From: Acidimicrobiia bacterium
GTDB taxonomy: Bacteria > Actinomycetota > Acidimicrobiia > Acidimicrobiales > Bin134
Direction: 5' to 3'
DNA length: 61,736 bases
Assembly: GCA_022821445.1 (NCBI GenBank)
Contig: JAJEDQ010000202.1
Span: 1-61,736, forward strand
In this document: piece after piece, positions 59,269-61,267 of the stretch
How positions within the stretch are numbered: the first letter of the stretch is position 1
Layout of the letters: the number at the start of each line of letters is the position of its first letter
Position numbers and translations under genes: made by a program
The notes under the pieces: model-generated
The model's input: the letters and a program-made list of their open reading frames with translations, nothing else
Told to the model about the DNA's origin: nothing
The model's database searches: none

Positions 59269-60024
59269 GTGACTGCTTGGCCGTTCTTGGACCATGACGG
59301 CCCGATTCCCATCGCCCACAGAGGGGGCGCCGCGGAGGGGCCGGAGAACACCATGGCCGCGTTCGCCGCCGCCATCGACCTCGGCTACCAATATGTCGAG
59401 ACCGACGTACACGCCACCCGCGACGACGTGCTGGTGGCGTTCCATGACGAGGGGTTGCAGCGCCTCAGCGCACGGCCCGAGGCCATCGCCGACCTGAATT
59501 GGCGGGATCTGAAAACGGTACGAGTCGGCGGTGGACACGCCATTCCCCGCTTCGAGGAGCTCTTGGAAGCCTGGACCGACCTACGGATCGCGGTCGACCC
59601 CAAACACGACCAGGCCACTGTGCCGCTGATCGGTGCCCTCCAACGCGCCGACGCCGTCGACCGCGTTTGCGTCGGCTCGTTTTCCGGCCGCCGACTGGCC
59701 CTCGCCCGGCGGTTGGGAGGACCCCGCTTGTGTACCGGACTGAGTCCCAAGGAGGTCGGCCAACTCCAGGCCGCATCGGCTGGTTTGCCAGTAAAGGTCA
59801 AGGCCGGCGCGTGCGCCCAGGTTCCCCCAAGTGCCAAGGCTGTTCCGGTAGTCCACCAGCGATTCGTGGACGCTGCCCACGCCCGAGGGCTTGCAGTGCA
59901 TGTGTGGACCATCGACGACCCCGACGAAATGCACCGACTCCTCGACATGGGGGTGGACGGCATCATGACCGACCGGCCCACCGTGTTGCGCGACGTTCTT
60001 GTGGCGCGCGGGAGGTGGTCTTGA
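59269..60024 (+). CDS. Glycerophosphodiester phosphodiesterase family protein (second copy)
   Basis: A 251-aa GDPD-fold enzyme, distinct from the one at 22961. Motifs are IAHRGG (about 16-21), GPENTMAAF, VETDVHATRD and VAFHDEGLQRLS, with the C-terminal GVDGIMTDRPTVL. The GTG at 59269 (VTAWPFLDHDG) is the first sensible start; longer frames overlap the divergent SirB1-like gene. The two starts are about 14 bases apart, so they share a divergent promoter. Confidence 0.85.
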   Translation: MTAWPFLDHDGPIPIAHRGGAAEGPENTMAAFAAAIDLGYQYVETDVHATRDDVLVAFHDEGLQRLSARPEAIADLNWRDLKTVRVGGGHAIPRFEELLEAWTDLRIAVDPKHDQATVPLIGALQRADAVDRVCVGSFSGRRLALARRLGGPRLCTGLSPKEVGQLQAASAGLPVKVKAGACAQVPPSAKAVPVVHQRFVDAAHARGLAVHVWTIDDPDEMHRLLDMGVDGIMTDRPTVLRDVLVARGRWS

Positions 60025-60130
60025 GGGTCTATTCCAGCCCCAAATCGGGCTCATGCCTGTGGTTAAATCCAGGTTTCTTGGGGATTTCTATTCACAGCAG
60101 TGGAAAACCCTGTGGATTTCGTTTTTCCGC

Positions 60131-60158
60131 TTGACCTGGGTTCTTTCCGCGCTATGGT
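60131..60158 (+). promoter_or_regulatory. Sigma-70-type promoter of the structured RNA
   Basis: TTGACC at 60131-60136 and TATGGT at 60153-60158 with a 16-base spacer. This is the best promoter-like pair seen in the window. A start near 60165 would put the first transcribed bases at the long-range helix of the RNA below. Confidence 0.6.
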
Positions 60159-60164
60159 ATGCCC

Positions 60165-60437
60165 ACCTACCAGAGACAAGCGGGGTGACTCGAGAGAGCA
60201 AGCGCCCGAAAGGGCGAAGGTTCGCAAGAGTCCGCAGGGTCACTGGAACGGGCCGAGGAAGTCGGTGGCACCACCGAAAGCCGAGGACCGGGAAGGCGGC
60301 CAGGTGCCGCAAGGCTCTGGGAGGTAGGAATCGGGGAACCGGGGGGCGCAAGCCCGCTGAGGCTCCGAAACCGAACGGGACGGCCCCGAGAAGTCGACCG
60401 GTTTCGACCGGGAGGCTACTCGGGGCCTCCTTCTTTT
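60165..60437 (+). ncRNA. Structured non-coding RNA candidate (about 273 nt), family unknown
   Basis: A transcript predicted between a promoter and an intrinsic terminator. Helix P1: CCTA+CCAGAG (60166-60175) pairs with CTCTGG and TAGG (60315-60320 and 60325-60328) over 10 bp with a 4-nt bulge. Inside it are an 8-bp stem (60184-60191/60237-60244) capped by a GAAA-loop hairpin (60203-60216), GGCCG/CGGCC (60251-60255/60297-60301) enclosing a 6-bp hairpin (60262-60277), and a GCAA-loop hairpin (60306-60315). A second domain is closed by TCGGGG/CCCCGA (60331-60336/60384-60389) with a GCAA-loop hairpin (60344-60355). A UUCG hairpin (60398-60411) abuts the terminator. I found no marks of RNase P RNA, tmRNA, SRP RNA or known riboswitches. 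Confidence 0.7.
60411..60437 (+). terminator. Intrinsic terminator of the structured RNA
   Basis: Stem GGAGGC (60411-60416) with GCCTCC (60425-60430), 8-base loop, followed by TTCTTTTC. It ends the RNA before the tandem repeat that carries extra copies of its 3' half. Confidence 0.75.
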
Positions 60438-60543
60438 CTGGCGAGTCCCAGAACCTGCCCACCGGGACTCGGGGCCTCCTTCTTTTCTGGCGAGTCCCAG
60501 AACCTGCCCACCGGAACTCGGGGCCTCTTGCTTTTCCCTGGCG
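60418..60543. repeat. 49-bp tandem repeat containing terminator 3' half
   Basis: Copies at 60418-60466 and 60467-60515 are almost identical (period 49); a diverged partial third copy follows at 60516-60543. Each unit contains GGCCTCCTTCTTTTC and an inverted ACTCG/CGAGT pair. The extra copies lack the 5' GGAGGC arm, so only the first forms the terminator. Confidence 0.88.
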
Positions 60544-60583
60544 CTTCGCAACTCAGGCAGTGGGCCTAAGTAGGGTGAGCGCC

Positions 60584-61267
60584 GTGAGCGGACCCGCAGT
60601 AGCACTGCTGCACGGACTGGCCGGCTCGGCCCGAAGGACATGGGGCGACAACGCCTGGCTCGACCTCCTGGCCGACGCGGGCCGAGAGGTGATCGGGGTT
60701 GATCTGATGGGCCACGGCACCGCTCCCAAGCCGCATCATCCCGAGGGTTACGCGGGTTTTGAGCAGCACGTGATCGACCACTTCCCCAATGAGCCCATCG
60801 ACGCCATCGGGTTCTCGCTGGGCGCCTACACCCTGTTGTCCATCGCCTCCAAGACCCCAGATCGGTTCCACCGGCTGGTGGTATCCGGGGTGGGCAAGAA
60901 CCTCTTCGAGCGGGATGAGGGCCACAGCCGCATGATCCTTCACGCCGTCACCGGCGAACCCGACCCCGAGAACCCCGAAGCGCTCCACTTCTCCACCTTG
61001 GCCGACGATCCCGAGGCCGACCGCGAGGCGCTCGCTGCCCTCCTGTCCAGCCGTACCGCCTTCGAAACCGAATGCCTGGGCGACGTCGCGGTGCCCACCC
61101 TTGTGGCTGTCGGCGATAAGGACTTCGCCTACCCCGCCGACCAACTGGTCGAGGCCCTCCCCGACGCCCGACTAGTGGTTCTCCGGGGCGTGGACCACTT
61201 CGCCACCCCGAAATCGTTCGACTTCATCGACGCCGCCCTCGACTTCATCGACGCCCGACCCTTCTGA
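60584..61267 (+). CDS. Alpha/beta hydrolase fold protein
   Basis: A 227-aa alpha/beta hydrolase. The oxyanion-hole segment LLHGLAGSARRTWGDNAW, nucleophile elbow GFSLG (in IDAIGFSLGAYTLLS), and the late catalytic Asp/His pair VAVGDKDFAYP and GVDHFATP are present. The substrate is unknown. I chose the GTG at 60584, with AGGG eight bases upstream; a GTG at 60575 is possible. It may be cotranscribed with nothing else; gltD runs toward it from the other strand. Confidence 0.85.
   Translation: MSGPAVALLHGLAGSARRTWGDNAWLDLLADAGREVIGVDLMGHGTAPKPHHPEGYAGFEQHVIDHFPNEPIDAIGFSLGAYTLLSIASKTPDRFHRLVVSGVGKNLFERDEGHSRMILHAVTGEPDPENPEALHFSTLADDPEADREALAALLSSRTAFETECLGDVAVPTLVAVGDKDFAYPADQLVEALPDARLVVLRGVDHFATPKSFDFIDAALDFIDARPF

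Follow-up and report, generated by a model that had tools for sequence, protein, structure and literature searches.

The locus of interest lies at 60131-60437 of the window, by which we mean the whole 61,736-nt stretch of DNA that was analysed, and is flanked by a GDPD gene (PF03009, E 6e-45) and an alpha/beta-hydrolase gene (PF00561, E 9e-17). The features found there are as follows, where the promoter consists of TTGACC (60131-60136), a 16-nt spacer and TATGGT (60153-60158), and where we infer a 5' end of the RNA about 7 nt past the -10 box.

60078-60089, plus strand: extra upstream copy of the GGGGATTTC element, read from the sequence; similar extra copies lie upstream in L067 and L098
60100-60120, plus strand: upstream element of two direct repeats, GTGGAAAAC and TGTGGATTTC, immediately 5' of the -35 box
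60131-60158, plus strand: sigma-70-like promoter TTGACC-16-TATGGT, kept in the genus alignment and in the family
60165-60437, plus strand: predicted non-coding RNA of about 273 nt, indicated by the fold z score, by occurrence in 20 of 22 genus genomes and by frame-breaking indels
60165-60325, plus strand: 5' domain, closed by the long-range helix P1 (60165-60175 with 60315-60325)
60327-60372, plus strand: second domain, an irregular hairpin with a GCAA loop (helices 8-10)
60377-60431, plus strand: 3' hairpin, the family signature (99.5% of cells paired in 17 genus RNAs; family counts; models R1 and R2)
60431-60437, plus strand: U-rich tail of the intrinsic terminator

The calculated folding energy of 60164-60437 was -146.5 kcal/mol in comparison to -113.6 +/- 5.0 kcal/mol for shuffled sequences (z -6.64), a value that none of 200 shuffles reached, and the z score of the antisense strand was -2.06. 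The original prediction had placed a 10-bp long-range helix here, and P1 was indeed present in the minimum-energy fold of the window RNA, with 8 of its 10 pairs holding in at least 16 of 17 genus RNAs, pair 11/154 in 13 of 17 and pair 12/153 in 1 of 17. The genus structure counts were based on 17 of the 20 RNAs, since L017, L019 and L020 were poorly aligned and thus omitted; folded singly, these three and L018 showed a long-range closing helix with altered bases, and in the minimum-energy fold of L009 the 5' end was paired differently. As regards the at least six further stems proposed earlier, 93.3% of cells pair under the minimum-energy fold of the window in the 17 copies, but the stem at alignment columns 24-36 with 57-70 was not kept, as 4 of its 10 pairs were broken in 8 to 10 sequences and its arm was missing from L017 and L019. 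Helix 3 was not kept in about half of the 17 genus copies, and pairs 181/210 and 190/201 of the second domain were broken in 7 of the 17. The GNRA and UUCG tetraloops that had been pointed out were present in 60131-60437 by inspection, and the proposed intrinsic terminator corresponds to the hairpin at 60377-60431 followed by the U-rich tail to 60437. The scan for terminator-like sites is weak by itself because it found 3 sites in 59900-60700, one of them the 3' hairpin, in comparison to 1.0 +/- 0.9 expected.

A DNA search returned matches in 25 of 99 relatives. Of these, 20 belong to the genus (22 genomes) and five to other families, where the match covers the 3' part only; the DNA match in G027, a genome without a model match, is probably a chance one. 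The 20 genus copies range from 214 to 271 nt, their lengths often differ by numbers not divisible by three, and stop codons lie in different frames, so the RNA does not code. A protein-coding reading was thus rejected on the frame-breaking indels of the genus copies, despite the open reading frame that, in the window, crosses the RNA into the hydrolase gene. Covariation within the genus was weak, with two pairs changed on both sides, a number reached by 23 of 500 shuffles, and one such pair in the consensus produced by RNAalifold itself. Two-sided changes are few there because the sequences are close, so that support from covariation comes from the wider family.

The most conserved part of the RNA is the terminator hairpin, and through it the family extends far past the genus, which had been missed in the original prediction. 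In the window the hairpin is composed of CCCCGAG, an A.A mismatch, the AGUC-GGCU helix, tandem GA and a CCGG stem with a UUCG loop; the mismatch, A.A in the window, is R.A in the family, and the tandem GA occurs in the genus of the window and in some others. Hairpin model R1 was built from 18 sequences and, at E<=0.01, detected the hairpin in 90 of the 298 genomes searched in the order. Model R2 was built from 59 diverse hairpins among the 72 less redundant of 157 matches, of which hairpins 32 came through similarity and model R1 and 27 through a sequence pattern. Among 248 near-complete genomes of the order, R2 found a match in 101 at E<=0.01 and in 91 at E<=1e-5, and 58 of 149 genera were represented. 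The distribution is therefore patchy, with 147 of the 248 near-complete genomes having no match, and strict filters and divergence can hide members of the family.

When the hairpin model was run on the phylum, 27 of 396 genomes matched, 16 in the order, 6 elsewhere in the class and 5 beyond it. The matches beyond the class include two plausible ones, L251 and L254, and one plain terminator, L263. The pattern scan of named genomes gave at least 118 stretches. Among the matches listed, 65 carried the names Acidimicrobiia, Acidimicrobiales or Acidimicrobiaceae, 4 were Ilumatobacteraceae, Microthrix, Sva0996 or Poriferisocius, 36 were Actinobacteria, Actinomycetes or Actinomycetota without a closer name, 4 had no taxon, 3 were Chloroflexi (L100, L119, L200) and 6 had other names. 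Four of these six (L104, L114, L180, L216) were dropped by title and inspection, and L165, titled Acidobacteria, and L173, a MAG titled Bifidobacterium breve, were kept. The hairpin is also carried by L169, a Candidatus Microthrix record. The pattern-scan and genome sets are not independent because some genomes are represented in both. Of 201 genomes surrounding one Chloroflexi carrier, 5 matched, one of which (G856) looks like a plain terminator, and four Chloroflexi-related genomes, three of them already found before, carry the 3' hairpin together with a common 5' domain of their own type. In the Chloroflexi members L100, L119, L200 and L230 we also noted a long-range 5' helix of the GUUGGAC/GUCCAAC type, which was not seen in Acidimicrobiia. 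Variant hairpins with GG for AG on the 5' side were found in family f23 and in class-mates (L252, L255, L256, L259, L261); they keep a mismatch at the R.A place, which is A.C in L261. Some weak model matches were set aside as plain terminators by their look (L091, L092, L221, L224, L231 and L263).

In the 59 diverse hairpins 95.6% of cells pair, in comparison to at most 50.8% when the partner strand was slid, and the number of cells with two-sided changes was 56 in comparison to 13.2 in shuffles. Such changes also occur at pairs outside the search pattern: 9 at pair 6-59, 7 at 7-58, 13 at 24-40, 15 at 25-39, 1 at 26-38 and 3 at 27-37. The covariation check on the helices suggested with the original prediction thus gave a weak result in the genus and a supportive one in the 3' hairpin of the wider family. 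The R.A mismatch was present in all 59 hairpins; its conservation and that of the lower stem are partly imposed, because the pattern and the regular expression fix them and the models favour their training set. The 2x2 purine mismatch above the middle helix in the window was found in 13 of the 59 single folds, so it was rejected as a usual feature of the family, and a purine-only loop was found in 22 of the 59.

The promoter TTGACC-16-TATGGT, claimed earlier from the same sequence, was borne out as the sole sigma-70-like site on either strand of 59900-60700, where 0.1 would be expected from shuffles. Across the family, a -35/-10 candidate was found 90 to 760 nt upstream of the hairpin at 121 of 152 distinct hairpin loci on the sense strand in comparison to 11 of 152 on the antisense strand. 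A promoter matrix trained on the sense candidates scored 105 of the 121 above a cut-off of 6, which was our own choice, and since the 11 antisense sequences trained likewise all pass, the score is no control by itself and the case for the promoter rests on 121 in comparison to 11 loci. Information over the 40 nt upstream was 16.0 bits for sense and 15.4 bits for antisense candidates, the latter value being inflated because it comes from only 11 sequences. The distance from the -35 box to the hairpin was 139 to 725 nt with a median of 298 nt (105 loci).

Upstream of the -35 box, the commonest letters at the 103 loci outside the genus set of the window spell TGGGGACAACCTCGGGATTTCGCG, with single positions conserved up to 83%, and the counterpart of this consensus in the window is 60100-60120, an element seen again when the promoters of the family are aligned. 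Allowing up to 3 mismatches, the window contains it at this position only, and together with TTGAC it occurs once in the genome to which the window belongs. An element common to the promoters of rRNA or RNase P genes was considered and rejected, as by eye it was not seen in front of the 16S genes (five) and RNase P genes (seven) that were inspected. The direct repeats at 60078-60120 look, by their sequence, like the site of a dedicated regulator, and they may resemble DnaA boxes.

The contrast between the two strands bears on the possibility that only a terminator or a DNA palindrome is conserved here and that the rest is a chance fold of GC-rich intergenic DNA. Such a reading would account for the weak matches of the hairpin model on both strands and for the plain terminators among the weak matches (L091 and L092, for example), but it is very improbable given the far lower fold z score of the sense strand, the excess of sense promoter candidates, the covariation outside the search pattern and the nearly always single copy per genome. 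With no Rfam match at gathering score, copies in nearly every genome of the genus, indels that break the frame, covariation in the hairpin and promoter candidates on the sense strand, the original claim that an undescribed structured RNA lies here, with a promoter and terminator of its own, was supported, and we regard a real non-coding RNA gene at 60131-60437 as very probable.

The neighbouring genes vary among loci and include, by Pfam for seven proteins, GDPD, UvrD helicase, polyphosphate kinase (ppk), Lgt, HypD and alpha/beta-hydrolase; the remaining flanking proteins were judged by eye from partial translations. These genes bear on whether the RNA could act in cis on the gene that follows it, in the window as a leader or attenuator of the alpha/beta-hydrolase. 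The end of the hairpin about 150 nt before the hydrolase start and the presence of a related hydrolase two genes on in the f56 and f57 relatives would agree with a leader. On the other hand, the next gene lies on the opposite strand at 12 of the 34 loci with a called gene (38 examined; the caller is crude and misses some genes), the next genes elsewhere belong to different families such as UvrD helicase, polyphosphate kinase and Lgt, and the fixed place before co-oriented related genes that marks a riboswitch or leader was not found at these loci. Since 5' domains measure between about 75 and more than 500 nt and the neighbours change, the RNA is not a leader; the hydrolase-leader alternative offered in the original prediction is highly unlikely, and its preference for an independent RNA agrees with the changing neighbours and with the RNA having its own promoter.

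While the hairpin is fixed, the 5' domains lack sequence that could be aligned by eye across families, and their length goes from about 75 nt in the shortest RNA folded (L082, 134 nt in total) to 536 and 551 nt in family f54. For the three f54 members (L046, L048, L050), all with a 5' domain above 500 nt, the consensus of the three full-length RNAs has a folding energy of about -490 kcal/mol. Short forms such as L019 (225 nt) and L082 are rod-like with the 3' hairpin attached, and branched 5' domains are found in the window's own type and in the f45, f54, BP and Chloroflexi types. The U content of the 5' domain was 8%, close to the 11% of the RNase P RNA that this genome encodes, which fits a stable structured RNA. 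These properties also bear on a trans-acting sRNA pairing with mRNAs, in favour of which are the RNA's own promoter and terminator and an upstream element suggestive of a dedicated regulator; the conserved part, however, is a double-stranded hairpin, no unpaired stretch was seen to be conserved across families, and highly structured 5' domains of more than 500 nt leave little free seed, so that we consider this explanation improbable. The variable length, the purine-rich loops and the terminator at the 3' end are reminiscent of a CsrB/RsmZ-type sponge of a GGA-binding protein, but GGA was not enriched (8 in L001 in comparison to 9.4 expected, with z>2 in L046 alone of 24 RNAs), and such a sponge was rejected as extremely unlikely.

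Comparison with known RNA classes agreed with the earlier failure to match the RNA to any of them. At gathering score, neither the whole window nor any of 18 related loci matched a family of Rfam 15, and with the limit relaxed to E 10 the best value in 59900-60700 was E 0.15, for the terminator hairpin, which we treated as chance. RNase P RNA (RF00010), to which the RNA is similar in being purine-rich, U-poor and made of multiple helices, had no match here and is a separate locus in all eight of eight genomes (G000:C102 in the window's own). For tmRNA, ARAGORN found 0 genes in 10 loci and Rfam had no match. The 6S RNA model (RF00013) had no match in two sets of genomes (0 of 10 and 0 of 8), but this test is weak, as the model matches 5 of 14 controls, not all of which need have 6S; three of these 18 genomes (G023, G027 and G053) are also without a convincing copy of the hairpin RNA. 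No description of this RNA was found in open-licence PubMed Central text or in Rfam 15, and as far as these searches show, the RNA family is undescribed.

The closest comparisons are with RNAs that are tied to RNA polymerase. Ms1 (MTS2823, scr3559) is described as a stand-alone actinobacterial RNA of 230-300 nt, 6S-like with extra hairpins at both ends, which binds core RNA polymerase (PMC9130861), and CoRP of Corynebacterium as an RNA of about 516 nt tied to RNA polymerase (PMC11077062). 6S has been hard to find in Actinobacteria, Ms1 and CoRP are reported from other lineages thereof, and Acidimicrobiia are not mentioned in the main text of either article (PMC9130861, PMC11077062). Compared by description, Ms1 is similar in size, and L019 and L082 here are likewise a rod plus a 3' hairpin; its neighbour, however, is a HAD-IB hydrolase, in contrast to GDPD, UvrD, ppk and Lgt here, and no HAD-IB hydrolase was noticed among the flanking proteins (seven by Pfam and the rest by eye from partial translations). 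In the phylum-wide search relevant to this comparison, 22 of the 27 matching genomes belonged to the window's own class. CoRP, also compared by description, is a long and lineage-restricted actinobacterial RNA; some 5' domains here likewise exceed 500 nt, but CoRP differs in sitting among tRNA genes. With regard to 6S, the shortest members here are rod-like and the 6S slot is empty by Rfam in the genomes tested, but the RNA has no Rfam-model match and many members are branched. 6S RNA, which binds the sigma-70 holoenzyme and templates pRNA, is a long hairpin with a central open-promoter-like bubble; here L019 and L082 fold as rods with internal loops, in contrast to the branched Chloroflexi, BP, f45 and f54 types and the window's own. 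An assignment to 6S or to Ms1 is not established.

We consider it somewhat more probable that the RNA acts through binding of a protein than through mRNA, an estimate that was slightly lowered because the tandem purine mismatch is not family-wide. Our best explanation, which we hold tentatively, is an independent structured non-coding RNA with a constant 3' hairpin that serves as terminator, bound by a protein whose likeliest identity would be RNA polymerase. The window RNA would be the genus-level member of a family whose constant part is this hairpin; it may accumulate as a stable ribonucleoprotein, a protein would recognise the hairpin, perhaps at the R.A mismatch, and the regulatory work could fall to the 5' domain, which evolves fast and takes the form of a rod in the shortest members. 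Polymerase is suggested as partner by analogy with 6S, Ms1 and CoRP, in a lineage with no detected 6S, and is by itself a possible rather than a probable identification. Against it stand the branched members, including the window's own type, and the order genomes without a match (147 of 248), which are odd for a general polymerase regulator.

An alternative that we hold to be only slightly less likely is that the RNA, in a structural or regulatory role, uses its 3' hairpin to bind a protein other than polymerase, such as an RNA chaperone or a component of the ribosome or degradosome, and that its 5' domain serves as a scaffold or decoy. It agrees with the hairpin being the only part that is constant across families and with 5' domains that differ in size and fold, but analogy alone sets it apart from the polymerase reading. 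Within the polymerase reading, a stronger form is more doubtful still, namely that the RNA is the missing polymerase-regulating 6S counterpart of Acidimicrobiia, older than the class, with a fixed 3' hairpin, a free 5' domain of about 75 to more than 500 nt and its own upstream element. The greater age is suggested by hairpin relatives in other actinobacterial classes (G337, G336) and in some Chloroflexi. A usually single-copy, promoter-driven RNA in 101 of the 248 near-complete genomes tested would represent either a missing polymerase RNA or a new ribonucleoprotein, the hairpin model provides a ready means to annotate the family, and a single fixed hairpin with a nearly free remainder is an unusual mode of RNA evolution.

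With respect to copy number, near-complete genomes of the order matched by R2 nearly always have one hairpin, and G028, G213 and G300 have two strong hairpin places each. In G300, L068 1302-1724 (minus strand) contains two tandem hairpins with a promoter candidate before each, that is, a doubled RNA gene, and in the MAG CF_bin.45 the hairpin gene occurs twice, on separate contigs (L147, L158). Family f56 has a second, decayed hairpin downstream of the RNA in L023, and in the window, directly downstream of the RNA, a 49-nt unit that includes the end of the terminator hairpin is present as 2.4 tandem repeats at 60418-60536. In family f99, which belongs to another class, a variant hairpin begins no more than about 10 nt after a promoter (L253 1501-1567, L257 and L258), an arrangement found twice in G485, and these units may possibly be hairpin-only RNAs.
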